A DNA stretch of 64,000 bases from Effusibacillus dendaii (GTDB taxonomy: Bacteria; Bacillota; Bacilli; Tumebacillales; Effusibacillaceae), in contig NZ_AP023366.1 of the NCBI RefSeq assembly GCF_015097055.1, forward strand, positions 3,189,001-3,253,000. Direction: 5' to 3'. This document shows, one piece after another, positions 19,008-55,749 of this stretch (its first letter is position 1; every line of letters begins with the position of its first letter). Below the pieces are notes generated by a model. The model was given only the letters and a program-made list of their open reading frames with translations. It made no database searches and had not been told where the DNA came from. The position numbers were made by a program, and so were the translations under genes.

Positions 19008-19032
19008 CCCACACTTTTTTGTGTGGGCTTTT
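19008..19032 (+). terminator. Terminator after Met-rich lipoprotein
   Basis: CCCACAC-TTTTTT-GTGTGGG followed by CTTTTC. It probably gives partial read-through into the CcdA-like gene. Confidence 0.8.
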
Positions 19033-19062
19033 CATTACGATAACCGGGGGATTTGAACGATT

Positions 19063-31510: not shown

Positions 31511-31515
31511 GAAGT

Positions 31516-37583: not shown

Positions 37584-38733
37584 GATTGCGCTTCAACCGA
37601 ATAACAAGCAGTCCACCTACTTCGCAAAAGCGTGTGGTGTGGCTCGCTTTGCCTTCAATTGGGGCTTGGCAGAATGGAAGCGACAGTATGAAGCAGGTGA
37701 AAAGCCGACAGAAGCGTCACTTCGCCGTCAACTGAACTCGATTAAAAGAGATCAGTTTCCGTGGATGCTCGAAGTGACGAAAAACGCCCCGCAAATGGCG
37801 ATCATCCATTTGGGGCAGGCGTTCAGGAACTTTTTTTCTGGTCGCGCGAAGTATCCCACATTCAAAAAGAAAGGCGTCCATGACAGTTTTACGTTGACCA
37901 ACGATCAGTTTGCGGTCAGTGGCAAGCGAATCCGCATCCCGAATCTTGGTTGGGTACGGATGCGGGAAGCGTTGAGGTTTTCCGGCAAAATCATGTCTGC
38001 CACCATTTCGCGTAAGGCGGGCAAGTGGTTTGTCAGTATTACGGTAGACACCGAAGACGTACCGCCGATGAGCGAAAGCCAAGCCATCGTCGGTGTGGAT
38101 TTGGGAATCAATCGTCTGGCCACCTTGTCGGACGGGACGATGGTGTCGGGAGCGAAGCCGCATAAGACTCTTTTGAAACGGTTGCGCCGTCTGTCCCGCT
38201 CTCTATCGCGTAAGCAAAAAGGTTCAAAGAACAGAGCGAAGGCGAAACAGAAATTAGCGAAGCTCCACGTGCGGATCGCCAACATTCGCCATGATGAGTT
38301 GCACAAGCTGACGACCAACCTGGCGAGCCAATATGGCGTGATCGTGATCGAGGACCTAAACGTCAAAGGTATGATGACGAATCATCGCTTGGCGCGAGCG
38401 GTTGGCGACATGGGTTTTCATGAATTTCGCAGGCAGTTGGAGTATAAGACGGCGATGCGAGGCGGACGGGTGATTGTCGCAGACAGGTGGTTTGCATCGA
38501 GCAAGGCATGCTCAGATTGTGGCACAAAGGAAGAGGACATGCCACTGTCGATACGCGAGTGGACATGCCCTGAGTGCGGAATCCATCATGATCGAGACTT
38601 GAATGCTGCAAGGAATCTGATGAAATTGGCCGTGAGTTCCACGGCGACAGCCTGTGGAGAGAGCGTAAGACCTGCTAACACAGGGGCAGCCTCAACGAAG
38701 CAGGAATTCAACGTCAAAGCTACCTATGTGTAG
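37567..38733 (+). CDS. tnpB: TnpB RNA-guided nuclease of IS607
   Basis: The 388-residue product has the RuvC-like triad: Asp 178 in IVGVDLGINRLAT, Glu 262 in VIEDLNVKG, and Asp 344 in HHDRDLNAARN. The zinc finger CSDCG...CPECG lies between the last two. The N-terminal REC/WED part is complete (KIALQPNNKQSTYFAKACGV). TnpB cuts DNA next to a target-adjacent motif using an RNA made from the element end, which helps the element to persist. All catalytic residues are intact. Confidence 0.95.
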   Translation: MLRSHKIALQPNNKQSTYFAKACGVARFAFNWGLAEWKRQYEAGEKPTEASLRRQLNSIKRDQFPWMLEVTKNAPQMAIIHLGQAFRNFFSGRAKYPTFKKKGVHDSFTLTNDQFAVSGKRIRIPNLGWVRMREALRFSGKIMSATISRKAGKWFVSITVDTEDVPPMSESQAIVGVDLGINRLATLSDGTMVSGAKPHKTLLKRLRRLSRSLSRKQKGSKNRAKAKQKLAKLHVRIANIRHDELHKLTTNLASQYGVIVIEDLNVKGMMTNHRLARAVGDMGFHEFRRQLEYKTAMRGGRVIVADRWFASSKACSDCGTKEEDMPLSIREWTCPECGIHHDRDLNAARNLMKLAVSSTATACGESVRPANTGAASTKQEFNVKATYV

Positions 38734-38776: not shown

Positions 38777-38959
38777 TCAGGACTTGCTATCGGTTGATTC
38801 GCTTTCTTTATCTTTATTGATGCCTTGCATGGAATCCTTGAATTCTTTAATGCTTTTCCCCATAGCCTGCCCAATCTGCGGCAGTTTGTTGGGACCGAAC
38901 ACAATCAGTGCAATTACCAGAATCAGGATTAAACCAGGGATACCGATATCAGAGAACAT
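38777..38959 (-). CDS. tatA: Twin-arginine translocase subunit TatA
   Basis: The 60-residue product begins with a short transmembrane helix ([21 protein letters not shown]), the FGPxKLP hinge and an amphipathic helix ([16 protein letters not shown]), then a charged tail. It is the pore-forming component of Tat export of folded proteins. No tatC lies nearby. ATG 38959 has the site GAGGAGG. Confidence 0.93.
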
Positions 38960-39065
38960 AAATCTACCTCCTCTCATCTACTCTATTAGTTTACCTCTTC
39001 AAGCCGGAAAAACGGAATAGTTAATTTGTGACAGAGTGAATGTCCCGAAACAGTAAGCAAACAGA

Positions 39066-39398: not shown

Positions 39399-42300
39399 AT
39401 GTTTGGGCGTGCAATTCCCGGTCGTATTCGGATACAAGTACATAGTTTAAAGCACAACCATTTTTTGAAAAGGGAATGGGAGCGGAAGCTCCTTCAACTG
39501 GCCGGTGTGATGGGGGTAGAGGCCAATCCAATTACAGGACGTGTACTGATTCTGTTTGACGAATCGGCTGTGACAGCGGATCAGATTGGTGAATGGGTGG
39601 AAGAAATCGAAGAAATATATGCGATGGCAGAAGAGTCTGGCGAGTTGACAAAAGCGGCGGCAGAAGCTGCTTCAACGGCAGAAGCGTGGCTTGAGGCAGG
39701 TGAGTATCAGGAGTGGCATGCCCGGCCGATCGAAGCGGCGATTGAACTGTTGAGAACGAACGAAAACGGCCTTCCATCGTCCGAAATCAATCAAAGGTTG
39801 GCTCGTCACGGGCCGAACGCTTTGCAGGAGGCCCCGCGCCCAGGTTGGTGGCGCTTATTTTTTCGTCAATTTGCCAACTTTATGACGATTGCGTTGATGG
39901 CATCCGCTTTTGCGACGCTGCTGCTGGGACGGGTGATGGATGCGGCCAGTATTTTTGCCGTACTTCTGTTGAATGCGTCACTGGGAACGTTTCAAGAGCG
40001 AAAGGCGGAAGACGAAGCGCAGGCGCTCCGCAAACTGACTGCGCCAACCGCAAAGGTGCTGCGTGACGGACAGGAAGTGGAAGTCCCGGCAAATACACTG
40101 GTGCCTGGCGATGTGATTGTCGTTGATCCAGGCGACCAAATTCCGGCGGATGCGAGATTGATCGACTGTTGGAATTTGGAAGTGGACGAGTCTTCGCTCA
40201 CAGGCGAATCCGTTCCTGTCCGGAAAAAATCCGGCTTGTGCAACAATGATACCGCTCTTGCGGATCGCACCAATATGCTGTTTATGGGAAGCCATGTGAC
40301 TCGGGGCCGTGCCCGCAGCGTGGTGGTGGCCACAGGCATGGAAACCGAACTGGGACGATTGTTCGCGCTGATTCAGAAGCAGCCGGAAGAATCCACTCCG
40401 CTGCAGAAAAAGTTAAATGTATTGGGGCAGTATCTGGTCTACGTGTCTTTAGGCATCAGTCTGTTTGTGATGCTGATTGGGCTTTTGCGCGGCAATCCGT
40501 TTGCCGATATGTTGATGACCGCCATCAGTCTCGCCACATCGGCGATACCGGAAGGATTGCCAATCATGATCACAATTGCGTTAGCGGTCGGCATGCGGCG
40601 GATGGTCGGCAAAAATGCGTTGGTCCGCAAACTGTCCGCGTTGGAAACGCTCGGTCGTGCCACCGTGATCTGTACAGATAAAACGGGCACGCTAACGAAA
40701 AACGAGATGACTGTACGTGCGGTATCCACTGCGGTGAAAACATGGGATGTGAGCGGGAACGGTTTTGCGCCGATCGGTCAATTTACGGAAAACGAACAAC
40801 TTACGGATGTAAAGAAAGAAGCCGATTTGGAATGGCTGCTGAGGGCGGCCACGCTCTGCAGTGATGCAAAACTGCTTCATAATGGGACGGAAGAGTGGGA
40901 AGCGGCACTGGCGCAAGGAGGTTTGTCCAGTTTTGATGAGGGGTGGACGATTCAGGGCGATCCGACCGAAGGATCGATTCTGGTCGCGGCGGCAAAAGCG
41001 GGTATCCTGCCGGAAAGCTGCCGGAAACCGTGGGAACGGCTGAAAGAAACACCATTTGAATCAGAAAGAAGGCGTATGTCTGTCGTTTGCCGGGATTCTG
41101 GCAATCAATGCAAGCTGATTGTGAAAGGTGCGATTGAAGATTTGCTTATGTTGTGTGATCGAGTGCAGGTGGACGGGCAGCTGGAAACACTCACAGAATC
41201 CCATAAAAACCTGATTATGGAGAAAAATGATCAGTTTGCTTCGCGTGCCCTGCGTGTATTGGCGGTGGCTTATCGTCCTCTGCCGGATGATTATGACCCG
41301 GTTGGCGAAGAAGGGGAAATGGATGAGCAAAATCTGATTTTTCTCGGCATCATCGGAATGATCGACCCGCCGCGTGATCAGGTAAAAGAAAGTATCGCCC
41401 ACTGTCAAAAAGCGGGCATCAAAGTCGTAATGATTACCGGCGATCATCCGCAAACGGCTGCCGCTATTGCGCGTGAGCTAAACCTTTTATCCGATGGCGG
41501 CCGGGTGTTGACCGGACCTGAACTGGACCAATTAACCGATGATGAATTGGTGGAGCTTGTACCAAGTGTGGACGTTTATGCTCGCGTCTCGCCTCACCAC
41601 AAGCTGCGGATTGTCGCTTCCTTCAAAAAAAGGGGTGAAATTGTGGTGATGACGGGGGACGGTGTCAACGACTCGCCTGCCGTCAAACAGGCCGATGTCG
41701 GAATCGCAATGGGAAGAGCCGGCGTGGATGTAACCAAACAGGCGTCCTCGATGATTATTACCGATGATAATTTTGTCACGATTTGCAAGGGTGTACAGGA
41801 AGGCCGCTCGATACTCGGAAATATTCGCAAATCATTAGGGTATCTGTTAAGCGGAAATCTGGGGGAAGTGATTTATGCCACACTGGCTGTTTTAATTGGC
41901 ATGCCGCTGCCGCTCGTGCCTATCCAGATTTTGCTGATTAATCTGTTTACTGACGCCCTTCCTTCGATTGCGCTTGCGATGGGCAATTCAATCGGGGATC
42001 AGAACGCATTGTCTTTGCGAAGCGCGCGCGATGTGACAGATCGCAATCTGATTACGCAAATTGTTGCGCGCGGCGTCGTGATTGGTCTGACGACCATGGC
42101 CGTATTTTCCGGAACATTGGCACTGACCGGCAATCTGATGTTGGCTCGTACCATGGCTTTCATGACCGTTTGCGCCAGCGAGCTGATACAGGCGGTTGAT
42201 TGGTGGCGAAACGACGAAGCTGACAAGAAACACAGCAGTCTGTTGCTGCAAGACCGATTTATGACAGGAACTTTAGCGGTTTCCTGGGCGGGATTGTTAT

Positions 42301-42521
42301 CGATTGTATACCTGCCGCCGTTGCAGGGTGTATTCCAAACGGTTGCCTTATCACCGTTGCACTGGCTGATTATTCTTGCCATCGGAGGGTCGATTTCGAT
42401 GCTCACCCGACCGGTTGCCCGGCTTGTTGCGATCACCGGTCAAAAACTCCAGGTCCTGATTCAGGCGTCAGCCGCCAACAGAATATCGGGCCGTTTTCAG
42501 CAACCGCAGACTGCCGCATGA
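39399..42521 (+). CDS. Large P-type ATPase, type-IIA core with N-terminal HMA-like domain (1)
   Basis: The product has 1040 residues. Residues 1-60 form an HMA-like fold without CxxC (IPGRIRIQVHSL, then NPITGRVLILFDE). The rest is a complete P-type pump: TGES (Thr 268), PEGLP (Glu 385), DKTGT (Asp 427) and GDGVND (Asp 754), with ion-site residues in helices 5 and 6 as in Ca2+-ATPase (NLGEVIYA, NLFTDALPS). Catalysis should be intact. The ion could be Ca2+, Mn2+ or Mg2+; this is not decidable here. ATG 39399 follows GAAAGGGGG. Confidence 0.92.
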   Translation: MFGRAIPGRIRIQVHSLKHNHFLKREWERKLLQLAGVMGVEANPITGRVLILFDESAVTADQIGEWVEEIEEIYAMAEESGELTKAAAEAASTAEAWLEAGEYQEWHARPIEAAIELLRTNENGLPSSEINQRLARHGPNALQEAPRPGWWRLFFRQFANFMTIALMASAFATLLLGRVMDAASIFAVLLLNASLGTFQERKAEDEAQALRKLTAPTAKVLRDGQEVEVPANTLVPGDVIVVDPGDQIPADARLIDCWNLEVDESSLTGESVPVRKKSGLCNNDTALADRTNMLFMGSHVTRGRARSVVVATGMETELGRLFALIQKQPEESTPLQKKLNVLGQYLVYVSLGISLFVMLIGLLRGNPFADMLMTAISLATSAIPEGLPIMITIALAVGMRRMVGKNALVRKLSALETLGRATVICTDKTGTLTKNEMTVRAVSTAVKTWDVSGNGFAPIGQFTENEQLTDVKKEADLEWLLRAATLCSDAKLLHNGTEEWEAALAQGGLSSFDEGWTIQGDPTEGSILVAAAKAGILPESCRKPWERLKETPFESERRRMSVVCRDSGNQCKLIVKGAIEDLLMLCDRVQVDGQLETLTESHKNLIMEKNDQFASRALRVLAVAYRPLPDDYDPVGEEGEMDEQNLIFLGIIGMIDPPRDQVKESIAHCQKAGIKVVMITGDHPQTAAAIARELNLLSDGGRVLTGPELDQLTDDELVELVPSVDVYARVSPHHKLRIVASFKKRGEIVVMTGDGVNDSPAVKQADVGIAMGRAGVDVTKQASSMIITDDNFVTICKGVQEGRSILGNIRKSLGYLLSGNLGEVIYATLAVLIGMPLPLVPIQILLINLFTDALPSIALAMGNSIGDQNALSLRSARDVTDRNLITQIVARGVVIGLTTMAVFSGTLALTGNLMLARTMAFMTVCASELIQAVDWWRNDEADKKHSSLLLQDRFMTGTLAVSWAGLLSIVYLPPLQGVFQTVALSPLHWLIILAIGGSISMLTRPVARLVAITGQKLQVLIQASAANRISGRFQQPQTAA

Positions 42522-42567
42522 TTCCATTGGAGATGGTGATACTACAGGCTAGAAAGGGGGATGTTAC

Positions 42568-42747
42568 ATGGAACCGTTAGAATGGATTCTGGCAGGCGCA
42601 GTGGTATATGCTCTATTCCCCGGCGTTCGGCGGGCCGTAGGAAAAACATGGAACGGTCTGCAGTCGGCAACCAACCAGGCGATGGAGGGTGTGGGGCAGA
42701 CTGCACAAAAGAAGATGAATACCATGGATTCGCCGGAAAATCGTTAA
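42568..42747 (+). CDS. Small single-helix protein between P-type ATPase genes
   Basis: The 59-residue product has the strong site GAAAGGGGG. One short membrane segment (WILAGAVVYALFPGV) is followed by a basic turn (RRAVGKTW) and a hydrophilic helix (LQSATNQAMEGVGQTAQKKM). The hydrophobic-Pro-xx-Arg pattern is shared with the small protein at 50313-50507. It may be a regulatory subunit of the neighbouring pump, as small membrane peptides are for other P-type ATPases; that is inference. Confidence 0.7.
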   Translation: MEPLEWILAGAVVYALFPGVRRAVGKTWNGLQSATNQAMEGVGQTAQKKMNTMDSPENR

Positions 42748-42753
42748 ATGCAA

Positions 42754-42792
42754 TGGGCCTTCTGCCGGATTTTTCCGCTTGGAAGGCCCTTT
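42754..42792 (+). terminator. Hairpin between small protein and pseudo-ATPase genes
   Basis: GGGCCTT (42755-42761) pairs with AAGGCCC (42783-42789), followed by TTT. It is probably an attenuating or weak terminator inside the cluster. Confidence 0.6.
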
Positions 42793-42836
42793 CTCTAAGA
42801 TGGTGTGCCTATTTTCCAAACAAAGAGGTGATCCAT

Positions 42837-45620
42837 TTGCCAGGCGCGATTGGAACCATAGGAATTTTCGCTATACGGTTGGCAGCTATACCAGGACTGT
42901 TTATCCGTCACATGTTGCAAAACGGATCGTCTGCTGCATCCTCGATGATGGGGCAACAGGTGCAGGAGCGGGAGGAACGGGCAAGCGCACGGCGTCCGGA
43001 AGAAGTTCCATTGGCCGATGGGTGGGAAACCGGACTTACTGAGCAGGAGGCCAAGCGACGGCTGGCAGCGCACGGTTCTAACGAATATCGACCGATACCG
43101 AGCCATATCCAGTTGTTGGGACAAACGTTGAAAAGTGCATCCACCCTCAGTTTGCTGGGGCTAGCCGTGTTCGCTCTTGTAATGGGCAAATATGTTGATG
43201 CGGCAATCGTCTTTGTCACATTTGCCGTATTGGGGGCTGTTTCTGTACGTGTAAAGGTGAAGGCGGCGCAAAATCATCGCCGTATGTTGGAAACGGAAGC
43301 AACAGCGTCCGTTCTCCGGGATGGAAAAATTTGCGAGATTGCTCCCGCATATGTCGTGCCCGGTGATCTGATATTTGTACGGCAGGGTGATGTGGTGCCC
43401 GCTGACGCGGTCGTTTTACGATCCGAACATCTGAAGGTCCGCGAAAAGCAGGTTCGGGGAAATGGGAACCGTGCCGATTTTTATCTGGTTGCAAAAGCAG
43501 CCCTTGATAATGGCCATTTGCCGCAGGTTCTGCCGCTTCATAACGTGGCCGAGGCAAACAGGCTGTATGCGGGATCGATGGTAGTTGGCGGATCTGCAAA
43601 GGCGTTGGTGACCTCAACAGGAAGAGCCACTCACCATTGGCAGCTGCATCAACATCCAAAACAACATGAAACATTCACAGAACAACGGTATTTCAAGTTT
43701 GCCGAAAAATTGACGAAGTACGGGTGGCTGGCTATTTTGGCGGTAGGGGTCTTGGTGCTTGCAGTCAGATGGTCCGGCTCAGCAGCATTGGAGACAGCTA
43801 TAGCAATTGGCACATCTGTAATTCCTGGCGGATTTTCGCTGCCGATCGTATTGGCGTTCTGGACGGCCATGCATCGAACAAGCCGAAAAGCTCAGGATCT
43901 TCCCGATTTACACGCGGCAGACCGGCTGGAAGACACCAAACTGGTCATCCTGTCTGAACAGGCAGTCACACGAAGGATACAGATCAAAAAGCTGTTCTGT
44001 CCGCAATCTCGCTGGCAGGTAAAACCGGATCTGCAGGATCATATGCACACCGGCAGGCTTCGTTTCTACCAAAATGGGATTTTGCAGGAGCCAAGCGGCA
44101 GACCGGAATGTAAAGCCCTTGTGCAGGCCGCCAAGCTGTTTGCAAGGGCGGAAGGGGATTGCGGTCCTTATGATCAAGCGGTTAACCGCTTGTACGACAA
44201 TTTCGGCTTGTCAGGTGCTCAGCGGACCGATTGGGAGTGGATCGGGCAAGGTGTTTTGGAATCGCACGGTCTGTTTGAATCACGGATGTTTAAGGATCCA
44301 ACAGGACGTGTGGTGGAAGTGGTGCGCGGACCTGCAGAACGTTTGTATGAAAGCTGCAGCCGAGTCATCTCTCCCTTGCACGATCTTGCAAATCTGGATG
44401 TGACAGGGAGTTCCCTTGCTGATGACCAAGCAGCGGAAGCGCTGCAAAGTTGGCTGGAAACTACCCGGCGGCATTATGAACAAACGATCGGTTTCGCCTG
44501 TCGGGTACATGCGGATTCGCTTGGGGAAGCAGGTTCTCTGATTTGGCTGGGAGCCATCTCTTACCAAACCGAATATGAAACGTCCGCTCCTTTATTGGAA
44601 CGGTTCGTAAAATTGGGCCTGCCAGTCCTGTTGACCGTTCAGGAGCATGTGTTAAGCGACCCGGCATTTCGAAGGTCGGTTTCATTCGATGGTATTAGGT
44701 GCAAGGTGGTCTCCGCCGGGGAATTGGGCCGGACGATGGAGCAGGAAGCAATAGACAATTACGATTTGTGGATCGTGTCTGCCCATTCGGAGGAACGGTT
44801 GAAATTGATCCAGAAACTGAGGGAAGTCTTCTCGCATATCTGTTTTGTCGGTTGCCGCGATCAGGAGAGAGCTTATTTTGGCGCCGCCTGGACAGCGGTG
44901 GAACAGGGGATTAGACGCGGATTGCATGACGTATTGGAAGCGATTGAGGAAGCACGTCACGCGAAATCGCGGATCAGCCATGCAAACGGATTTATCCTCA
45001 GCGGAAATGTCGGTGAAGCGGTGTTTTCATTGCTCGCCGGTCTTACGGGTGCACAGCAGGCACTGACACCTATCAACATCAATCTGCTGACAAACGTATT
45101 CGCTTCGATTGGACTGGCAGCCGGTCGGCGAAAGATGGATCGGCAGCAACCGACGGAAGGAAAAAATCTGAGCAAACTGCACAAACCGATCGTAACACAC
45201 GGCTTGATGTCCGGTTCGGTTGCGATGCTCTCATACGCAGGAGGGCTGTTGATCAGCGGCGATCCGTTTTTTGCAAGCACGTTTGCGTTTGCAACGCTGA
45301 TTCTGTCCCAATTGTGGCAAGCCGTTCACTGGCGGCGGCAGTCACGAGTGGCAAAACTGAAGGATATGGTCGAGGATCGAGTGTTGGCAGTCAGCCTGCT
45401 GGGATCGCTGGCGATTTTAGTGGCAAGCGTTTATATGCCAGGGGTGACGCAACTGTTGCAGACAACGCCGCTTGCCCTGCAGGATTGGCTTGCAGCTATG
45501 GCGATTGCGGGCGCGGTGGGTCCGCTTGCTTCCAAAAGCGAAAATTCAGTTTGGCCAGTCGTCAAACGAATGGCGGGATGGTTGCAGGCAAAGGAAAGAA
45601 ACTTGCAGACAGCTGCCTGA
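42837..45620 (+). CDS. P-type ATPase paralogue lacking all catalytic motifs (pseudo-ATPase)
   Basis: The product has 927 residues from TTG 42837 (site AAAGAGGTGATCC); upstream frame to 42561 overlaps another gene. The layout copies the pumps on either side: N-terminal helix, actuator region, helix 4, nucleotide region, helices 5-10. However, PEGLP is PGGFSLP (Gly 331), DKTGT is SEQAVT (Glu 374), TGES is replaced by VRGNGN, and GDGVND is absent. GNVGEAVF (Glu 727) and NLLTN remain in helices 5 and 6. The frame is unbroken over 2.8 kb, so a non-catalytic role is more likely than recent decay. It lacks the HMA-like domain. Confidence 0.85.
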   Translation: MPGAIGTIGIFAIRLAAIPGLFIRHMLQNGSSAASSMMGQQVQEREERASARRPEEVPLADGWETGLTEQEAKRRLAAHGSNEYRPIPSHIQLLGQTLKSASTLSLLGLAVFALVMGKYVDAAIVFVTFAVLGAVSVRVKVKAAQNHRRMLETEATASVLRDGKICEIAPAYVVPGDLIFVRQGDVVPADAVVLRSEHLKVREKQVRGNGNRADFYLVAKAALDNGHLPQVLPLHNVAEANRLYAGSMVVGGSAKALVTSTGRATHHWQLHQHPKQHETFTEQRYFKFAEKLTKYGWLAILAVGVLVLAVRWSGSAALETAIAIGTSVIPGGFSLPIVLAFWTAMHRTSRKAQDLPDLHAADRLEDTKLVILSEQAVTRRIQIKKLFCPQSRWQVKPDLQDHMHTGRLRFYQNGILQEPSGRPECKALVQAAKLFARAEGDCGPYDQAVNRLYDNFGLSGAQRTDWEWIGQGVLESHGLFESRMFKDPTGRVVEVVRGPAERLYESCSRVISPLHDLANLDVTGSSLADDQAAEALQSWLETTRRHYEQTIGFACRVHADSLGEAGSLIWLGAISYQTEYETSAPLLERFVKLGLPVLLTVQEHVLSDPAFRRSVSFDGIRCKVVSAGELGRTMEQEAIDNYDLWIVSAHSEERLKLIQKLREVFSHICFVGCRDQERAYFGAAWTAVEQGIRRGLHDVLEAIEEARHAKSRISHANGFILSGNVGEAVFSLLAGLTGAQQALTPININLLTNVFASIGLAAGRRKMDRQQPTEGKNLSKLHKPIVTHGLMSGSVAMLSYAGGLLISGDPFFASTFAFATLILSQLWQAVHWRRQSRVAKLKDMVEDRVLAVSLLGSLAILVASVYMPGVTQLLQTTPLALQDWLAAMAIAGAVGPLASKSENSVWPVVKRMAGWLQAKERNLQTAA

Positions 45621-45662
45621 AAGTCGGCTGCTGCAGAGATTTGTTGAAAGAAGGGTTCCGTT

Positions 45663-48600
45663 TTGCAAGGTAACAGAGATATTTCCGTTCGTCCGACGGG
45701 GTGGACCGATTTTCCGTTTGGTCGCTTGATCCACCGGCTGCCTGGACGAGTGCGATTTCAAATAAACAGATTGCCAGGGAATCAGGCTATGGCCAATCTT
45801 ATCCGTGACATCTGCGGCCAGATCAACGGGGTCAAACAAGTAACCGTTAATCCTGTCACCGGCCGTATGTTGCTGCTGTTTGATGAAACGAAACTTACCG
45901 GAGACCAGTTGCTGGGGCTATTGCTCGAAGCAGACGTACTGTTTGTATCCCAACAGGCGGTAGCGGCTGCGAAAGAAACATCGGCCACAGACGGTCATCC
46001 TGTGACTGTAAAGGAGGCCCAAACGGACGCGGGCGCGTCAAACGCTGAGGGATCCGCTGCCGTAGACGGCAACCTTGCAGTCGAAACGGACTGGCATGCG
46101 CTTCCGCCGAGCGAAATTGTGGAACGGCTGCACAGTAACAGCAGCAGCGGGCTCGATCGCAACGAAGTGATGGAACGCCGTCGGTTTTTTGGAACGAACG
46201 AACTGCCGAAGGTGGAACGTCCAGCTTGGTATCGAACGCTGCTGCGCCAATTTTTTAATTTTACTACGTTTACCATGGTGGGGATCTCGGCGCTGCCTAT
46301 TTTCCTGGGTCGAATCCGCGATACGGCGGGCGTGCTGCTGGTGCTTGCCGTCAATGCGGTGATCGGCACCTATCAGGAACAGAAGGCGCAAAAAGATGTG
46401 GAGGCGTTAAAAAAACTGTCTGTGCATCATGCGAAAGCGATCCGTTCCGGTGAGGAAATCCGGATATTGGCCGATCAACTGGTGCCGGGTGACATTTTGC
46501 TGTTGGAAGCGGGTGATCGGGTTCCGGCCGATGCCATTTTGGTAGACAGTTCAAATGTCGAAGTTGACGAATCCGCTCTGACAGGTGAATCTCTGCCCGT
46601 TCCCAAAATGGCGGCGATTGTATGTGAAACGGAAACTCCCTTGGCGGAACGAAAAAATATGGTCTACATGGGCACCTTGCTGACGCGAGGGCGGGCCCGG
46701 GCGATTGTTGTCGCAACAGGCAGACAGACTGAAATGGGACGGTTGACCCACGTTTTGCAGAATGTGGAAAGCAGACCCACGCCACTGCAAAAAAAATTAA
46801 ACGTGGTGGCCCGAACGCTTGTCATCTCAGCTTTGGCGATTGCGGGCGCGGTAGGCGCCGCCCGCTTTATACAGGGATATTCGTTGATCGATACATTAAT
46901 GACAGGGGTATCGGTGGCCACAACAGCCATTTCAGAAGGATTGCCGATCATGATTACGGTTGCGCTGGTGACCGGCATGCGCCGGATGGTTCGTCACAAA
47001 GCGGTCGTACGGCAGCTGGCGGCACTGGAAACGTTGGCCAAAGTGGACATCATCTGTTGTGACAAAACAGGCACATTGACCACCAATCAAATGACTGTCA
47101 GGCAAGTGGTTTGCGGCGAACGGGAATGGAGCGTAACGGGCCACGGCTATCAACGGACAGGAAACTTTCTGGAAAACGGGCAGTCGGTCGAGTCCCGTAG
47201 CAACCGGAATTTGGGGTGGATTGCGACGATTGCCGCTGTCTGTAATGATGCATCGATTATGCCTGACGGTCACACATGGGAAATCAAAGGGGATCCGACG
47301 GAAGCGGCGCTCTTGGTGGCTGCTGCCAAAGCGGGAATTTTGCAGGATGTGTGCCGCAACGAATGGCAAAGATTGCACGAACTCCCATTTGATTCGGAAC
47401 GCCGCCGGATGAGCGTTGTTTGCCGAAATCAGATTGGCGAATATTACCTGTTCTGTAAAGGCGCGGTTGATGAATTATTGAAAATATGCGATCATGCATT
47501 GACCGAAGAATCGACTCGACCGCTTGATACCCGTTTGCGAACGAAACTGATCGAACAGGAATACAAGGCGGCGGAACAGGGGATGCGGGTGCTTGGGGTT
47601 GCCTACAAACGTCTCGATCATTTGCCGTCCACACCTCTTAACGAATGGGAGAGCGGCCTGGTTTTTGGCGGCATGTTTGCGATGATGGACCCGTTGCGGC
47701 AAGATGTGCAAACGAGTATCGAAACATGCAGACAATCGGGGATGGAAGTGGTGATGATTACGGGCGATCACCCAAAAACGGCTCAGGCCATCAGTCGGGA
47801 ACTGGGATTCGTGTGCAGTGATCAGCAGATTTTGTCCGGTACCGAATTGGATCGCATGTCAGATGAGGAACTGATGAAAGCCACCCGTCAAATCAAAATA
47901 TATAGCCGTGTTTCGCCAGCCGGAAAGCAGCGAATTGTGTCCGCCCTGCAAAAACGCGGCCTGGTCGTGGCGATGACCGGTGACGGTGTGAATGATGCGC
48001 CTGCGCTGAAACAAGCGGATGTTGGCATCGCGCTTGGTTCAGGCACGGATGTGGCAAAAGAATCATCCGCGCTGGTGCTCGCAAACGATCATTTCAGCGC
48101 GATTGTAAAAGCGATCCGGCAGGGCAGAACGGTGCTCAGCAATATTCGCAGCACCATCGGATACATATTTACAGGCAACTTGGCTGAAGTTTTGTACGCA
48201 TCGTTAGTAGTGGCAGCCGGATTGCCGTTGCCGCTGATGCCGCTGCAGATGATGCTGATGAACATTCTGACCGACTCGTTGCCGACCCTGATTATGACGC
48301 TTGGACAGCCATCGGCGAGACGCAACCAGCAATCGGTTGAACGGTTGCCTTCCGTTCGCGATGTATTCGATTCGACGCTGCTTACCCGTGTCACAGCAGG
48401 CGGGCTGCCTGTTGGTCTGGCTACAGCCGCTTTGTTTATCGGCGTACTGGCGATCACCCACAACCCGGCGCTCGCCAGTACGATGGCGTTGGCTGCTCTG
48501 GCGCTGGGAAAATTGGCTCTGGTGCCCGAGTGGCGGCGTGCCAGCGGCAGCGCAAGCTTGCGGCAGGATTACATGATGCTGACTACGCTTGCCGTTTCCT

Positions 48601-48842
48601 TGACCGGACTTTTGGCGTCGATCTATTTGCCGCAGCTGCGCGGCGTGTTCAACAGTGTTCCATTGGGTGTCCATCATTGGGCGGTGATTGCGGCATCCGT
48701 ATTTACGGCAAGGCGGCTGGCTGAGCCGTTAACCCGCATGGCATTGGGACTGGTTCGTTATGTGGCTCTACTGGGACAGTCGATTCGATTCAGCTCCGCT
48801 GTCGGTCGTTACACGGCTGCTTCGCATACCGGCTGCCAATAG
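45663..48842 (+). CDS. Large P-type ATPase, type-IIA core with N-terminal HMA-like domain (2)
   Basis: The product has 1059 residues from TTG 45663 (site AGAAGGG). The HMA-like domain (LPGRVRFQINRLPG, then NPVTGRMLLLFDE) lacks Cys. A linker rich in Ala, Thr and Glu leads to a full pump with TGES (Thr 307), EGLP in SEGLPIMIT (Ser replaces the usual Pro), DKTGT (Asp 467), [20 protein letters not shown] and ion-site helices NLAEVLYA and NILTDSLPT. It is probably active. It follows the pseudo-ATPase by 42 bp. Its last 75 bp overlap the convergent MFS gene. Confidence 0.92.
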   Translation: MQGNRDISVRPTGWTDFPFGRLIHRLPGRVRFQINRLPGNQAMANLIRDICGQINGVKQVTVNPVTGRMLLLFDETKLTGDQLLGLLLEADVLFVSQQAVAAAKETSATDGHPVTVKEAQTDAGASNAEGSAAVDGNLAVETDWHALPPSEIVERLHSNSSSGLDRNEVMERRRFFGTNELPKVERPAWYRTLLRQFFNFTTFTMVGISALPIFLGRIRDTAGVLLVLAVNAVIGTYQEQKAQKDVEALKKLSVHHAKAIRSGEEIRILADQLVPGDILLLEAGDRVPADAILVDSSNVEVDESALTGESLPVPKMAAIVCETETPLAERKNMVYMGTLLTRGRARAIVVATGRQTEMGRLTHVLQNVESRPTPLQKKLNVVARTLVISALAIAGAVGAARFIQGYSLIDTLMTGVSVATTAISEGLPIMITVALVTGMRRMVRHKAVVRQLAALETLAKVDIICCDKTGTLTTNQMTVRQVVCGEREWSVTGHGYQRTGNFLENGQSVESRSNRNLGWIATIAAVCNDASIMPDGHTWEIKGDPTEAALLVAAAKAGILQDVCRNEWQRLHELPFDSERRRMSVVCRNQIGEYYLFCKGAVDELLKICDHALTEESTRPLDTRLRTKLIEQEYKAAEQGMRVLGVAYKRLDHLPSTPLNEWESGLVFGGMFAMMDPLRQDVQTSIETCRQSGMEVVMITGDHPKTAQAISRELGFVCSDQQILSGTELDRMSDEELMKATRQIKIYSRVSPAGKQRIVSALQKRGLVVAMTGDGVNDAPALKQADVGIALGSGTDVAKESSALVLANDHFSAIVKAIRQGRTVLSNIRSTIGYIFTGNLAEVLYASLVVAAGLPLPLMPLQMMLMNILTDSLPTLIMTLGQPSARRNQQSVERLPSVRDVFDSTLLTRVTAGGLPVGLATAALFIGVLAITHNPALASTMALAALALGKLALVPEWRRASGSASLRQDYMMLTTLAVSLTGLLASIYLPQLRGVFNSVPLGVHHWAVIAASVFTARRLAEPLTRMALGLVRYVALLGQSIRFSSAVGRYTAASHTGCQ

Positions 48843-50087
48843 GAAACAAATCAACAGCAGTGCGGCTAAAAAGTAAAGTCCCGCTTCCACTTTTCCGGTG
48901 GAAGTCTTCAAGAATCCAATCGCGTAAGGCCCCAGGAAACCGCCCAGATTTCCTACCGAGTTAATAACGGCGATTCCCACTGCGGCGGCCGCTTCGCTGA
49001 GAAACAACGCCGGCAGGGACCAAAACGGGCCAAAGAAACTGAAAATGCCCACCGTCGCCAGACTCATCATCAGAATCGAAATAACAGGATCTGTTGTTAT
49101 TCCGCAACCGATCAATCCGATCGCGCCAATGAACGGAGGAATCGCTGTATGCCAGCGCCGTTCCCCCGTTCGGTCCGATCGACGGCCCCAGTAAATCATG
49201 GCGATCGCGCCGGCTATATAAGGAAGCATCGCGATTAAACCGACCTCAGTATTCGTCAGTAATTTGGAGAATGATTTAATAATCGTCGGCATCCAGAAAT
49301 TGATGCCGTATAATCCGGTGACCAGCGTAAAGTACACCAGGGCAAGATACCATACTCGCGGATTGGCCAAAACCTGTTTGGTAGACAGGGTGTTCCGATT
49401 CGCCTTTGCCTCTTGTTCCTTCCGCAATTCGGTCAGCAACCACTGTTTTTCTTCTTCTGTCAGCCAGTTGGCGTGTTCAGGGCGATCGGTCAAGTAGAAG
49501 TAGGTAATAATGCCAAAAATGACAGCCGGCAGCCCTTCGATAATAAACAGCCAGCGCCATCCCGGCATACCCGCCCAATGGATATGGTCCATAATCCAGG
49601 TGGAGAGGGGAGCGCCAATAATGTTGGAGACTGTCAGGGCGGTCATAAACAGAGCGAACGCGCGGGCCTGTTCCTTTCGCCGAAACCAATATGTGATATA
49701 CAGAATAATGCCGGGGAAAAACCCTGCTTCCGCCAACCCCAGTACAAATCGCAAAATGTACATGTGAGTCGCGTTTTGCGCCCAGGCGGTAATGATGACG
49801 ACAATTCCCCAACTGATCAAAATGCGCGCGATCCAAATGCGTGCTCCGATGCGGTGCATCAGAATATTGCTGGGAACTTCGAAAAGGAAATAGCCAATAA
49901 AGAAAATTCCGGAAATTAACCCCATAACGGTACTCGTTAAACCTAACGCCTTGTTCATGTCGAGCGCCGCATAGCCGATGTTCACCCGGTCCAAAAACGA
50001 AATGATGTACAACACAAAAATATACGGAATAATGCGGTAACTTATTTTTCTGATGGTACGCTGTTCAATTGTTTGCACGCTCTGCAC
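48768..50087 (-). CDS. MFS transporter, anion:cation symporter (ACS) family
   Basis: The product has 439 residues and twelve membrane helices. The first-helix motif SFLDRVNIGYAALDMNKALG and the loop RIGARIWIARILISWG fit the ACS group (organic and aromatic acid uptake, such as 4-hydroxyphenylacetate, phthalate or tartrate). The aromatic meta-cleavage operon 3 kb away suggests import of its substrate, which is inference. The gene is convergent with and overlaps the end of the preceding ATPase gene. Confidence 0.92.
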   Translation of the reverse strand: MQSVQTIEQRTIRKISYRIIPYIFVLYIISFLDRVNIGYAALDMNKALGLTSTVMGLISGIFFIGYFLFEVPSNILMHRIGARIWIARILISWGIVVIITAWAQNATHMYILRFVLGLAEAGFFPGIILYITYWFRRKEQARAFALFMTALTVSNIIGAPLSTWIMDHIHWAGMPGWRWLFIIEGLPAVIFGIITYFYLTDRPEHANWLTEEEKQWLLTELRKEQEAKANRNTLSTKQVLANPRVWYLALVYFTLVTGLYGINFWMPTIIKSFSKLLTNTEVGLIAMLPYIAGAIAMIYWGRRSDRTGERRWHTAIPPFIGAIGLIGCGITTDPVISILMMSLATVGIFSFFGPFWSLPALFLSEAAAAVGIAVINSVGNLGGFLGPYAIGFLKTSTGKVEAGLYFLAALLLICFLLAAGMRSSRVTTDSGAESNRLSQ

Positions 50088-50212
50088 CGGCGGTTCCCCC
50101 TACATAAAAAAATTGGCATACTTAAAAAATAAATATTCTGATAACAATATAATATTTCAACAATACGGAAAATAGCAAGCGGCCTTCTCGCGGTTCAGCT
50201 TGTTTGCATGGG

Positions 50213-50238
50213 AAAAAAGCCTTCACGAAAAGGCTTTC
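50213..50238 (-). terminator. Terminator of small membrane-protein gene
   Basis: On the minus strand AAAGCCTT-TTCGTG-AAGGCTTTTTT, downstream of the gene at 50313-50507. Confidence 0.75.
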
Positions 50239-50312
50239 GAATAGAGCTGCGAATTGTCTGATTCGCTGAAGTGTTTACTTAATGAGGTTTTCGAAAAAAG
50301 TAATGTGCCTGA

Positions 50313-50507
50313 TTATTGTAAAGGCGGTTCGTTCGGCGCGTTCGGATTTCCTCCCGCTTCCCGTACCTGATCGACCAAATCCAAAACTGCGGCAGTTCCT
50401 TTGACAGCGGCCCGCCGGGTAGCTTTCCGCGCTTCCGGGGAAACGGCCAGAATGACAGCCACCGCAGTCAGTGCGATACCGAATGGGGACCGAAAAAAAC
50501 GCATCAT
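50313..50507 (-). CDS. Small single-helix protein of P-type ATPase cluster
   Basis: The 64-residue product has the site TTGGAGGCG. One membrane segment (FGIALTAVAVILAVSPEAR) is followed by a basic helix (KATRRAAVKGTAAVLDLVDQV) and a polar tail ending NAPNEPPLQ. It shares the hydrophobic-Pro-xx-Arg-(Arg/Lys)-Ala pattern with the protein at 42568-42747. It is divergent from the HMA/P1B-like pseudo-ATPase, so the two share an upstream region. Confidence 0.68.
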   Translation of the reverse strand: MMRFFRSPFGIALTAVAVILAVSPEARKATRRAAVKGTAAVLDLVDQVREAGGNPNAPNEPPLQ

Positions 50508-50676
50508 GAACAAACGCCTCCAACAGGTAGATTCAACTGGCTGATTCAACCAATCGAGTAAAGCATTCCCGCTTATGACCAATTTATGCAGGGCAATTAC
50601 TCATAAAAATTGGTGGTGCCGTACATACTACCCGCTATTAAACAACCCTGCAAAATAATGGATAAGGAGAAAGCCG

Positions 50677-52578
50677 ATGCTGACCGTCTCTGAAAACGGG
50701 CGCTCGCTTCGCTGCCTGCCCGGGCGTGTTCGAATCGAAATCAATGGATTGAAGAACAATCCCCTGTTACGGGATCTTATCGCCCGGCGATTTGGCCAGA
50801 TAGAGGGAGTGACGACTGTAAAGGCGTGCCTGGTGACAGGGAGAGTGCTGCTCTGTTATGACGAAAATCGCGTTTCGTTCGGTAAACTGTATGAGACTGT
50901 ACAGGCGTTGGAAAACCAGCACGAGCAAGTAACAAAAATGGAGCAGGAAGTCGCGGTTGCCCGCCAGTCGATGGTGGCGGAAACAAGCTCCATTTTTATA
51001 CCGCAGCCGACCCATCCCCCCCTTCCAAACGGCGATCGTGTCCCGTCTGAAAAAAAAATTCCGGTGCCATTGATCGCATCTGTCGCCGGATTGGGAGTCA
51101 TCGGCATCAAACAGTTGTTGACCGGCGGAGCCTCCGCATTGGCGCAAAATCTGCCGCTTTTTTATCTGTCCGGCCTGGTTGCCATTGTCTCGGGCTATCC
51201 GTCGATCAGCCGAACCATCCAAAGAATCATGCCGGTTGCGGATCAGAAATTCAATCCGATTTTTGCAGGTGCGCTGATTCTTGCTCTGCTTCGCGAAAAT
51301 TTGCCTGTACTCGGTACGCTCAGTCTCATCCAATACCTCAATTGGAAACGGGAGTGCGCTTTACGAAACGGAACTTTGCAAACCACCCGTCCGGAGTCGG
51401 ACACGGCTGTGCAAAGATACTGTCAAACAGCCGAAAAAAGAGGATTTCTGTTAGCCGCAGCCACACTGCTTTTGACCCGCAGCCCGCTTGTCAGCCTGGC
51501 TGTCCTGTTGGCGTCGAATCCCCGACCGGCCGCCATGTCTGAAGAATATGCCTGGAACCAGGCAGCATTAACAGCGGCGGAACGGGAGTATCCACTGCCT
51601 GAAAACGGATCGATCGAGCAGATGGCACGTACCCGATTGCTTTTGGTCGAAGACACGTCGCTTCTTTTTCGTATTGATCCGGAAGCGGCAATTGAATGTG
51701 TTGCGGACGGCGATGATGAGGCAAAAATATGGTGCGAAACGGCCGCTCTTCTGCGCAAAAGCGATCATCCGTGGAAAGCGGAGGTGATTCGCAATGCGGA
51801 AGCAACCGGTCGGACGATGCGGACCGCTTTTTACGTGGAGGAAGAACCGCAAGGCGTCAAAGGCATGATTAACGGAACCGAGTTTTTGATAGGCGAGAAA
51901 CATTTCATAATAAAGAACCATGTGGATTGGAAAGAATATGAACAGACGAGCAGGCAGTTGGAAGAGGAAGGATACCAGATTCAGTTTGTGGCAAAACAGA
52001 TGGCCCGCCGGAAAGTATGCATGGGAGTGCTGTATCGCAAAACGGGGAACTGCACACCTGAATATTACAGGCTGACCGATTTGTGCCGCGAGCATCAAAT
52101 GCAGCTTGCCGTTTGGAAAAACAGTCTGCGCATCGACAGGCAAACGCTGCGCAAACATGGAATTCGGCACGGATGGTTATCCTGTCCGGAAGAATGGGCG
52201 ATCAGGCGAATCGCGCGGTTACGGCAGCGGGGGGAAGAAGTGATGCTCGTTTCGGGAAATGTATCCCCGTTTTTACCTGTGCGGGTTCCGACTGTCCCGA
52301 TCCGGCAAATCGGGGAAACCGGTCCGGTTTTCCAATATTCCCGCCGAATCGGGCGGATGATTCAGCATCATTTGGCTGCAACGAAATGTTGGAATCTGCT
52401 GGGGCTTTTGTCCATATTTTTTTACGGGGTTTCGGCTGTTGTAATAAATGCGCTGTCAGATGCGGTGATGCTGTTGTTTCTGGCCCGATCGAAATGGATT
52501 TGCGAAAAAGGCGGGCCGCGGTCGGGGGCTTCAGATGAAACGCTGCCACGAGCTGGCTTCAGCCAGTTAGCTATCTAA
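50677..52578 (+). CDS. HMA-containing P1B-like pseudo-ATPase
   Basis: The 633-residue product begins with the same Cys-less HMA-like domain as the two pumps (LPGRVRIEINGLKNN, then TGRVLLCYDE, residues 12-65). Four membrane segments and a degenerate P1B core follow: GYPSISRTI, a soluble domain with the HP motif KSDHPWKAE (His 364, Pro 365), VKGMINGTEFLIGEKHF, and two C-terminal helices. DKTGT is replaced by EDTSLL (residues 325-330), and CPC and GDGVND are missing. It cannot hydrolyse ATP by the P-type mechanism. The frame is intact, which suggests a structural or sensing role. Confidence 0.8.
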   Translation: MLTVSENGRSLRCLPGRVRIEINGLKNNPLLRDLIARRFGQIEGVTTVKACLVTGRVLLCYDENRVSFGKLYETVQALENQHEQVTKMEQEVAVARQSMVAETSSIFIPQPTHPPLPNGDRVPSEKKIPVPLIASVAGLGVIGIKQLLTGGASALAQNLPLFYLSGLVAIVSGYPSISRTIQRIMPVADQKFNPIFAGALILALLRENLPVLGTLSLIQYLNWKRECALRNGTLQTTRPESDTAVQRYCQTAEKRGFLLAAATLLLTRSPLVSLAVLLASNPRPAAMSEEYAWNQAALTAAEREYPLPENGSIEQMARTRLLLVEDTSLLFRIDPEAAIECVADGDDEAKIWCETAALLRKSDHPWKAEVIRNAEATGRTMRTAFYVEEEPQGVKGMINGTEFLIGEKHFIIKNHVDWKEYEQTSRQLEEEGYQIQFVAKQMARRKVCMGVLYRKTGNCTPEYYRLTDLCREHQMQLAVWKNSLRIDRQTLRKHGIRHGWLSCPEEWAIRRIARLRQRGEEVMLVSGNVSPFLPVRVPTVPIRQIGETGPVFQYSRRIGRMIQHHLAATKCWNLLGLLSIFFYGVSAVVINALSDAVMLLFLARSKWICEKGGPRSGASDETLPRAGFSQLAI

Positions 52579-52610
52579 ACGGTTGAATATGCATACAGGA
52601 GGTTTTCACT

Positions 52611-52874
52611 GTGCCATCGACAAAACTAAAGAAAGTTGTGACAGGTGTTGCGCTCACGCTGGCTGCACCGGTCGTCTTGCCGATCGCCAAAAACGTCCTG
52701 CAGCCTTTGTTGGTGCTCGGCCGCAAGGGAGCTTCCGAACTGGCGAACCGGACGCGGTATGCGATGGAATATACGCGCGAAGAAATTGAAGACTTCATTG
52801 CGGAAGCGCAATTCGAACGTATGAAAAGAAAATTTGACAGAGAACTGGGTTTGACACCGGAAGAAAATAAATAA
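52611..52874 (+). CDS. Small membrane-anchored protein (DUF5132-like)
   Basis: The 87-residue product from GTG 52611 has the site AGGAGG. It has one hydrophobic segment (GVALTLAAPVVLPIAKNVLQPLLVLG) and a charged C-terminal helix (EYTREEIEDFIAEAQFERMK). Size, helix and position beside HMA/P-type ATPase genes fit DUF5132, but I cannot confirm that without a profile search. It probably associates with the neighbouring pseudo-ATPase or pumps. Confidence 0.65.
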   Translation: MPSTKLKKVVTGVALTLAAPVVLPIAKNVLQPLLVLGRKGASELANRTRYAMEYTREEIEDFIAEAQFERMKRKFDRELGLTPEENK

Positions 52875-52891
52875 CGGAAGGATGCCGGAAA

Positions 52892-53143
52892 ATGGAAACT
52901 ACACAAACGATAGAAGCAGGCACGGAGCAAACGATTGACGATCATCTGCGCATTGCGCTCTTCCATTTGGAAACCGCTTTAGACAAAAGCCTCACGGAGG
53001 TATTGGCAAACCAGGACCGAAAAAAGGAAATCGGGCAAAAGTGGGAACAGTTTCTCGGCCATTTTTTTAATCAAATTCGGGAAAAGGGTAAGCAGCATCG
53101 TGTCAATCTGCTCAGTTGGATTTCTTTCCCGAGATTCCGCTAG
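52892..53143 (+). CDS. Small soluble helical protein of P-type ATPase cluster
   Basis: The 83-residue product has no signal or membrane segment. It is predicted helical and charged (DDHLRIALFHLETALDKSL, KKEIGQKWEQFLGHFFNQI) with a basic, aromatic tail (HRVNLLSWISFPRFR) that could contact the membrane. It follows the DUF5132-like gene by 17 bp and ends at a strong terminator, so it is the last gene of the cluster. No family is recognised. Confidence 0.65.
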   Translation: METTQTIEAGTEQTIDDHLRIALFHLETALDKSLTEVLANQDRKKEIGQKWEQFLGHFFNQIREKGKQHRVNLLSWISFPRFR

Positions 53144-54195: not shown

Positions 54196-55749
54196 ATGGG
54201 GATGACGCACAAATCGTTGTCTGCAGTAGCAGTAGCAGAAAAGACAACCGAACTGAGGGAGTTTGACATACCTGCCATTCCGTCTCACGCAGGGCTCTTG
54301 AAGGTAGAAATCGTGGGTGTCTGCGGTACGGACGTGTCCTATTACAAGATGGTGAAAGAGCCGAGAATCCTCGGTCACCATGTGGTGGGACACATTGAGC
54401 AAATCGGGGAAGAGGCAGCCAACAGATGGGGAGTAAAGGAAGGCGACCGGGTGGCGATGGAGGAGTATATCCCCTGCGGGCAATGCAGCCATTGCCGTAC
54501 CGGAATGTATCGGGCCTGCGTGTTTACCGATCCGCGGGCAGGCGGCATCCGCTATGGAGCTGCCCCCATATCGATCCCCCCTTCCCTATGGGGAGGTTTC
54601 AGCCAGTATATGTTTAAACGGAAGAGGGAGAACCTATTCAACAGTTGGAGGAGCGGTGATACGGTTATGGCAGCAGGTGAACCGGTTTTTGCGATACGTT
54701 ATTGTCCCGCTTTCGGACATTCCTTGCAGGACCCGAAAAGCTTTTGGAACGAATTCTGGGTTTCCCGCGATCCGCTTGATCCGGATCATTTTGGAAAACA
54801 GAATGTCGGTATCTACCGTTTGCAAGTGCAGGGCCCGGATCGTCTGTCGCTGATGACCATACCCAGCCATGATATGGGAAAGCAAATTATGCTGGCGGAA
54901 AAGCATGGCACACCGTTCAAAATTGCCATCATGCTGGGCAATCATCCGGCTATTACGCTGTTTGCAGGAACACCGCTTGGTTATGCCGAATCGGAATATG
55001 CATATGCAGCAGCCATGATGGGGGACTCGATCGAGTTGACCCAATCGGGCAATGGGTTGGATATTCTGGCAAACTCCGAAATGGTGATTGAAGCGGAGCT
55101 GGTTCATGGAGAGCGCATTTTGGAGGGACCGTTTGGCGAATTTCCGGGGAGTTACAGCGGTGTTCGACGCGCACCGGTTTTCTGCGTGACCGCTGTGTCG
55201 CATCGAAAAAATCCCATTTTTGAGAATATCTATATCGGCAAAGGATGGACGGAGCATGATACGTTGATTGGCCTTCATACGTCGGTTCCGATCTATTCCC
55301 AATTGCGCGAAACATTTCCGGAAGTGGTGGCTGTCAACGCCTTGTACCAGCACGGATTAACCGGCATCATTTCGGTTAAAAACCGGTTCGGCGGATTTGC
55401 CAAATCGGTCGCGCTGCGTGCTCTGGGCACTCCGCACGGCGTCATGTATTTGAAAAATCTGATTATGGTCGATGAAGATGTCGATCCGTTTGACCTGAAC
55501 CAGGTGATGTGGGCGTTGTCGACACGTACCCGGGCGAATGACATTATGGTGCTGCCCAATATGCCCTTGGTCCCGGTTGACCCTTCAGCGGAAGTATCCG
55601 GCAAGGGTCATCGATTGATTATTGATGCCACCAGTTTTGCGCCGCCTGATACCACCGGACATGATGCGCGGATTGTATCGCCGCCCAGCGGCCCTGAAAT
55701 CGATCGGTTGGTCAAACAGATCCGTTCGCTGCAGGAGGGAATTAGATGA
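54196..55749 (+). CDS. Chimeric protein: zinc alcohol dehydrogenase N-terminus fused to UbiD decarboxylase
   Basis: Residues 1 to about 140 are the GroES-like domain of a zinc dehydrogenase: GVCGTDVSYY with catalytic Cys, GHHVVGHIEQIG, the structural zinc site CGQCSHCRTGMYRAC, then LWGGFSQYM, but no Rossmann domain follows. From about residue 190 it is UbiD: SRDPLDPDHFGKQNVGIYR, LEGPFGEFPGSYSG (catalytic Glu pair) and VDEDVDPFDLNQVMWALST. UbiD lacks its first 145 or so residues. The roughly 50 residues between match neither. It looks like a deletion joining two genes; an assembly error is the alternative. Confidence 0.8.
   Translation: MGMTHKSLSAVAVAEKTTELREFDIPAIPSHAGLLKVEIVGVCGTDVSYYKMVKEPRILGHHVVGHIEQIGEEAANRWGVKEGDRVAMEEYIPCGQCSHCRTGMYRACVFTDPRAGGIRYGAAPISIPPSLWGGFSQYMFKRKRENLFNSWRSGDTVMAAGEPVFAIRYCPAFGHSLQDPKSFWNEFWVSRDPLDPDHFGKQNVGIYRLQVQGPDRLSLMTIPSHDMGKQIMLAEKHGTPFKIAIMLGNHPAITLFAGTPLGYAESEYAYAAAMMGDSIELTQSGNGLDILANSEMVIEAELVHGERILEGPFGEFPGSYSGVRRAPVFCVTAVSHRKNPIFENIYIGKGWTEHDTLIGLHTSVPIYSQLRETFPEVVAVNALYQHGLTGIISVKNRFGGFAKSVALRALGTPHGVMYLKNLIMVDEDVDPFDLNQVMWALSTRTRANDIMVLPNMPLVPVDPSAEVSGKGHRLIIDATSFAPPDTTGHDARIVSPPSGPEIDRLVKQIRSLQEGIR

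Follow-up and report, generated by a model that had tools for sequence, protein, structure and literature searches.

The stretch analyzed here comprises 64,000 nucleotides of the Effusibacillus dendaii contig NZ_AP023366.1 (positions 3,189,001 to 3,253,000, forward strand; hereafter the window) and carries a group of genes for intact and dead P-type ATPases and small proteins. With moderate confidence, this group is read as a type-IIA pump for a divalent cation, probably Ca2+, that is regulated by a catalytically dead P1B-type partner, a system carried by many soil bacteria, often tied to polyphosphate, and present in the window in a split and expanded form. The most likely mechanism is the regulation or assembly of the divalent-cation pump by a pseudo-ATPase subunit, and the split, doubled set of the window is most likely a lineage-specific form of the system. 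A physical complex, the nature of the ion, and a sensor role for the dead partner are what we infer from the comparisons below, in which L numbers denote loci and G numbers genomes. The genes of the window are the following.

39399–42521, plus strand: pumpA, 1040 amino acids, HMA_2 domain and intact type-IIA P-type ATPase, with PEGLP in transmembrane helix 4 (TM4), N..E in TM5, and N..TD in TM6.
42568–42747, plus strand: s1, a small protein of 59 amino acids, confined among the searched loci to the window, L023, and L024.
42840–45620, plus strand: psA, 926 amino acids without the stop, a dead type-II P-type ATPase paralogue with IPGG for IPEG in TM4 and its catalytic motifs gone.
45663–48842, plus strand: pumpB, 1059 amino acids, HMA_2 domain and intact type-IIA P-type ATPase, with SEGLP in TM4.
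48768–50087, minus strand: a gene of the major facilitator superfamily (MFS), an unrelated transporter gene lying among the system genes.
50313–50582, minus strand: s2, 89 amino acids, one hydrophobic segment and the motif SPEARK..R..VKGT, divergent from psB.
50677–52578, plus strand: psB, 633 amino acids, HMA_2 domain and dead P1B-type ATPase without an actuator domain, homologous to the N-terminal half of fused pumps.
52611–52874, plus strand: s3, one hydrophobic segment and a helix of the EE.EDI.AEAQFERMK type, of a DUF5132-like family.
52892–53143, plus strand: s4, 83 amino acids, helical by sequence, with the motif HL..A..HLE.A...WE.FLG.F.....KGK.

Other Bacilli have one open frame, about 1400–1700 amino acids long, that aligns to psB in its first part and to the pumps in the remainder. 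A scan of the psB alignment against genome contigs, with one genome per species and 84,980 species, returned 65 loci, mainly from Paenibacillus but also from Cohnella, Brevibacillus, Bacillus and relatives, Thermoactinomycetaceae, Tumebacillus, Desulfosporosinus, and others. Together with the loci of relatives of the window, and after removal of the duplicates L028, L029, L031, L032, and L033, these gave 63 fused psB-pump genes, including both genes of L088 and those of L077, L082, and L084, which were counted although the frame is split in two. In the latter three loci the fused gene consists of two overlapping frames, possibly through a sequencing error. The 60 full-length fusions are open frames of 1401–1699 amino acids with the P-type motifs in the C-terminal half. 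On plasmids, a search for the fused protein gave 478 records at an E-value of 1e-50, none with 80% coverage, and four matches that were opened, three of them actinobacterial, contained no fused pump and nothing matching psB (three annotated pumps of about 900–930 amino acids and one unannotated Streptomyces locus with two partial pump frames). For psB itself, 92 plasmid records were found, of which the 30 listed were distant P1B-type matches within residues 296–533.

The fused genes also keep the company of the small proteins. Within 3.5 kb of the 61 fused genes usable for neighbours (upstream flank of 3 kb or more, downstream flank of 1.5 kb or more), s2 was found at 58, s3 at 59, s4 at 57, and a glycine-zipper protein (gz) at 56, with all four together at 53. 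At least one family is missing at L026, L027, L038, L039, L046, L076, L078, and one gene of L088; the fused gene of L027 has none of the four, and the split set of the same genome, L025, has them all. Twelve further fused loci (L158–L169, from 12 of 13 additional genomes with a full match, G230 being left out), which were excluded from the counts because at least three may overlap counted loci and some were known beforehand to have a polyphosphate kinase 1 (PPK1) gene, gave s2 and s3 at 12/12, s4 at 11, gz at 10, and PPK1 at 5. At ordinary type-IIA pump loci, s2, s3, s4, gz, psB, and PPK1 were found at none of 24, five of which were drawn from system-bearing genomes (G000, G001, G007, G065, and G068); the flanks were about 6 kb, except for one of about 3 kb at a contig end and 4 kb for four plasmids. 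The gene-set comparison proposed in an initial annotation of the window has revealed psB as part of one chain with an intact pump, in most cases with these small proteins as neighbours. The proposal of a multi-subunit pump with pseudo-enzyme subunits is strongly supported for psB by the 63 fusions and more weakly for the second pump, for psA, which was found in four genomes only, and for s1, which was found in three loci.

It is improbable that the pumps act alone, with psB, psA, and the small proteins linked to them by history and having their role elsewhere, such as sensing in a different pathway. Such an arrangement would fit the gene order of the window, which is unlike that of its relatives, and three loci (L170, L171, and L100) in which a short psB-like protein of 437–451 amino acids and s3 occur with no pump match in the fetched stretch. 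Against it stand the covalent fusion of psB to the pump in 63 genes and the recurring neighbours. An s2-like match was also seen in L170 and, weakly, in L100.

Domain and motif analysis of the window supports the inventory given above. The array of ATPases and small partners was correctly described in the initial annotation, yet its span also includes the unrelated minus-strand MFS gene. This gene sits between pumpB and s2, and its 3′ end shares 75 bases with the 3′ end of pumpB; the system genes of L023, L024, and L025 have no such gene between them. The two type-IIA pumps of 1040 and 1059 residues within 14 kb are indeed intact, TGES, DKTGT, and GDGVND all being present in their translations, and TGE, DKTGT, and GDGVND are all missing from the translations of psA and psB. 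Loss of catalytic motifs in psA was therefore confirmed, its reported length of 927 residues becoming 926 once the stop is excluded; Pfam matched E1-E2_ATPase and Cation_ATPase_C in this protein, and no HMA_2. In the 633-residue psB, HMA_2 (PF19991) is the sole Pfam domain above cut-off, and weak P1B matches in NCBIfam (best E-value 9.7e-6) agree with its description as a P1B-like paralogue. HMA_2 is above cut-off in pumpA and pumpB as well, which bears out an N-terminus shared by three of the four ATPase-like proteins but not its supposed lack of cysteine: by translation, pumpB has one and psB two with a third just upstream, none of the domains having CxxC. All four small open frames are present, with s2 on the minus strand, their single hydrophobic segments and the helical character of s4 being read from the sequence. 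DUF5132, named earlier as a profile to search, was not matched by the s3 of the window, and seven of ten scanned members of its family match at an E-value of 0.05 or better. Across the 3.45 Mb genome, HMA_2 is matched (E-value 0.01) by pumpA, pumpB, and psB and by no other protein, so that their clustering in this span is not due to chance; with the absence of the associated families from the 24 ordinary pump loci, this led to the rejection of chance clustering altogether. An ordinary SERCA-type pump is encoded elsewhere in the genome.

An AlphaFold model of psB (38 sequences; mean predicted local distance difference test score (pLDDT) 82.4, predicted TM-score (pTM) 0.62) has an N-terminal alpha-beta domain at the position of HMA_2, membrane helices, and a nucleotide-binding domain (N-domain). 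Its best PDB matches in Foldseek are copper and zinc P1B pumps, with low whole-chain TM-scores of 0.23–0.34 on the query among the 50 matches listed, a comparison that hardly tested the N-terminal domain and in which the absence of a family was not used as evidence. Superposition of the N-domain on that of CopA gave a Z-score of 17.3 and a root mean square deviation of 2.0 over 115 residues. In alignment with HMA_2-type P1B pumps, the actuator region of psB is missing, DKTGT has mostly become E-D-T/S-S-L, and TM4 reads N-P-R in 38/38 rows with no CPx-type motif; DKTGT is likewise found in none of the N-terminal halves of the 60 full-length fusions. The GxG and HP motifs have recognized roles in P1B pumps. 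Among the psB rows having the N-domain, His364 and Gly406 are kept in 33/33, and Gly393 and Gly396 in 32/33; nucleotide binding by psB is plausible. The assignment of psB as a dead relative of P1B-type ATPases, without phosphorylation motif, actuator domain, or CPx TM4, is supported by this predicted fold.

The ratio of nonsynonymous to synonymous substitution rates (dN/dS) indicates that the dead half is under purifying selection, with values of 0.09–0.33 in 14 pairs of related fusions, several of which have dS above 1, and of 0.06–0.15 for the pump half in the 13 pairs with an estimate. Taken together, the fusion, the recurring neighbours, and this selection place the dead P1B-like protein with the pump. 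Decaying duplicates or assembly leftovers are a scarcely credible explanation: catalytic motifs have been lost, and psB fragments occur in L098, L099, and L172, but full-length relatives are open in other genera and families and the same dead half is present in dozens of genomes. The initial annotation had named restriction of the dead paralogues to this strain, or scattered stop codons in relatives, as signs of decay; open frames were found in other species instead, and decay was rejected on these frames and the purifying selection.

The second dead protein has a narrower distribution. Full-length psA matches above 680 bits were found in four of 101 genomes searched: that of the window (G000), G001 of the same genus, and, from other families in the same order, G006 and G007. 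A second search of 398 genomes of the phylum (E-value 1e-100) matched only the window's own. The loci of G001, G006, and G007 (L023, L025, and L024, respectively) each have two pumps, psA, psB, s3, and s4, all as open frames, with s1 in L023 and L024 and s2 in L023 and L025. Identities to the window proteins are 41–70% for pumpA (70% in L023 and 67% in L024), 56–62% for pumpB, 41–53% for psA (41–55% in the comparison of full-length relatives), and 33–41% for psB. The TM4 motif IPGG is invariant across psA relatives, and rough dN/dS between the window and L023 comes to 0.17 (psA) and 0.35 (psB), at a dS close to saturation. As it is intact in four genomes and represented among the 398 of the phylum by the window's own alone, psA is a lineage-level invention and not a strain-level wreck. 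Full-length weak relatives in G014 and G027 have the catalytic motifs and were set aside as ordinary pumps. In a tree of 42 rows, psA and pumpB each fall on one side of a branch (100/100), and the pumpA proteins of the window and L023 pair (95/91), with that of L024 nearest by path. The second pump of L025 lies inside the fused clade and is no pumpA orthologue, so the label pumpA does not denote one group; the psA branches are very long, and their deep placement was not used.

The identity of the ion is suggested by the live half. All 60 full-length fusions carry DKTGT, GDGxND, PEGLP in TM4, N..E in TM5, and N..TD in TM6, with TGES in 56 and KGA in 47. pumpA has the P2A catalytic motifs and the TM4, TM5, and TM6 ion residues in full, and the translation of pumpB has N..TD in TM6 and GNLAE in TM5. 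These residues occupy what we take, from SERCA numbering, to be the Ca2+-site positions. Passages of two papers on mycobacterial pumps class CtpH as FUPA24 (PMC3573892) and report its involvement in Ca2+ pumping (PMC9180918). On these two grounds, the residues at the SERCA Ca2+ sites and the link of CtpH to Ca2+, Ca2+ is the leading guess, and Mn2+ is a conceivable alternative.

A transition-metal platform, in which a relative of ferrosome or PacL-type systems would handle iron, manganese, or zinc while the HMA_2 domains and s3 proteins cluster the pump and hand over the metal, is a somewhat unlikely alternative that several loci nevertheless recall. In L034 (6400–10700), four HMA_2 proteins, namely an intact P1B ATPase and three small proteins, adjoin feoA/feoB by eye, possibly as a ferrosome-type cluster. 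In L056 and L079, the fused system is adjoined by an HMA_2-type P1B gene (at 14927–17056 and 17447–19768, respectively) and by an s3-like protein with a C-terminal glycine zipper; the L056 copy reads DKIPS for DKTGT. DUF1490 (PacL) is weakly matched by two of ten s3-family members (best E-value 0.0097), and PacL1 and CtpC are described in part of PMC9374683 as clustering in membrane foci, with DUF6110 relatives accompanying P1B6 pumps. Against such a platform, the pump half is of type IIA, with Ca2+-type residues in TM4, TM5, and TM6 in 60/60 and no P1B metal site, the HMA_2 domains of the window lack CxxC, psB has NPR in TM4 throughout, and no metal riboswitch was matched in the window or in seven scanned loci.

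Returning to the regulated divalent-cation pump, its tie to polyphosphate comes from PPK1, the commonest neighbour, found at 28 of 73 loci examined; an ATP-binding cassette transporter ATPase follows at 17 and a GerW-family spore protein at 12. The PPK1 identity was confirmed on two examples with NCBIfam and Pfam. Of the 55 fused genes having 5 kb on both sides (eight of the 63 were left out), 24 have PPK1 no more than 5 kb away. Around the 63 fused genes it occurs in all four combinations of side and strand (13, 12, 5, and 2 frames, fragments included and one gene counted twice); this variety speaks for an association formed repeatedly, not for a single fixed order, although the Paenibacillus cases alone may represent one event. 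More than one PPK1 match was found in 7/24 genomes with psB and 2/275 without it (Fisher p 2.8e-7, relatedness ignored), and coordinates place one copy near a fused gene in G006, G062, G102, G122, G171, and G191. A quite unlikely extension of this association is that the system builds a bacterial equivalent of the acidocalcisome, with Ca2+ concentrated in a compartment or membrane domain by pump, dead half, and scaffolding proteins against polyphosphate from a dedicated neighbouring kinase; the lineage of the window would then have branched off without the kinase, with two pumps and a pair of pseudo-ATPase subunits.

Several observations weigh against a polyphosphate-linked Ca2+ pump with a regulatory dead subunit. 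Support for the complex, the transport, and the ion comes from comparison of sequences and models, and the neighbour counts, drawn mostly from Paenibacillaceae and Bacillaceae, ignore relatedness. In 13/13 comparable pairs, constraint is weaker on the dead half than on the pump half. Five of 38 psB rows, of the Bacillus type, are without the N-domain, and psB has lost the first Gly of the GxG motif of P1B pumps, so that nucleotide sensing cannot be general. In addition, psA was found in just four genomes, TM4 of pumpB reads SEGLP, and both pumps score below the NCBIfam equivalog cut-offs for Ca2+ pumps of the SERCA and PMR1 types (579.5 and 542.4 bits vs. 703.4; 631.2 and 563.2 vs. 798.3). As a simple rule, the system does not predict PPK1: among 299 genomes of the class, PPK1 was present in 15/24 with a strong psB match (E-value 1e-60) and 147/275 others (p 0.52). 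Nine psB genomes have no PPK1, six of those having fused genes, and one of the seven extra copies, in G171, is stop-interrupted (two pieces in L161). Searches of the window's genome found no PPK1, PPK2, or gz; the PPK1 link is therefore lost or was never made there.

The arrangement that we favour would work as follows. The type-IIA subunit would use ATP to export a divalent cation, most likely Ca2+, from the cytoplasm. Beside it in the membrane, the dead partner, which in most of the Bacillota found shares one chain with the pump, would set its activity through the HMA_2 and nucleotide domains, without itself pumping, and the small membrane proteins would assemble the unit. In many hosts, polyphosphate from the neighbouring kinase would probably buffer the same cation. 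In the lineage of the window, each half has its own gene, there are two pumps, and a second dead subunit, psA, derives from a type-II pump; the window's own genome does without polyphosphate kinase.

Elsewhere in the window, positions 54196–55749 hold a chimeric open frame with ADH_N (residues 34–141), UbiD without its first 48 profile positions, and UbiD_C, which looks like a gene fusion and lies upstream of a UbiX-like flavoprotein. A MerR-resolvase and OrfB/TnpB pair at 36954–38733, IS607-like by its domain make-up, is followed by a tatA-like gene (38777–38977). Two cyclic di-AMP riboswitches were found at 63795–63926 and 31513–31705.

If true, a pump with a conserved dead-pump half would be a new mode of P-type ATPase regulation, and the system would give the poorly characterized FUPA24 class a testable anatomy. 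The recurrent PPK1 neighbour ties an uncharacterized pump family to polyphosphate. Searches of the open literature, with subscription papers outside their scope, found no paper on inactive or pseudo P-type ATPases and none that mentions DUF5132 or the accession of HMA_2.

Among known systems, KdpFABC is a P-type ATPase within a multi-subunit complex, in which the partners are channel-like or small subunits and are not known to include dead P-type ATPases. It resembles the proposed complex in being multi-subunit and differs in the type of partner; KdpB chains are among the fold matches of psB. The HMA_2-type motif is presumably also carried by FezB proteins. The ferrosome (Fez) is described in passages of citing papers as an iron organelle with the P-type pump FezB (PMC11334425, PMC12574912), and the P1B genes adjoining the system in L056 and L079 recall it. 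The active pump here differs in being of type IIA, and psB, the only HMA_2-P1B protein among the three HMA_2 matches of the genome, is dead. In the PacL1-CtpC platform, a neighbouring gene supplies the P-type pump with a small partner that has one TM segment; a dead ATPase subunit is not mentioned in the relevant part of PMC9374683. The s3 rows viewed have by eye no His-rich tail, and of ten scanned members of the s3 family two match DUF1490 weakly and seven match DUF5132.

An architectural likeness exists to FUPA24 (Transporter Classification 3.A.3.24; CtpH and CtpI), the members of which are about twofold long with functional P-type motifs in the C-terminal part (PMC3573892, PMC9180918), as are the fused relatives. 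The passages of these two papers on the class do not describe the N-terminal half as a dead P1B ATPase; the case made in PMC3573892 is for ten transmembrane segments and against the two-segment FUPA24 annotation. Double length is a property of the fused relatives and not of the split genes of the window, where the halves are encoded separately, alongside an additional pump and an additional dead paralogue.

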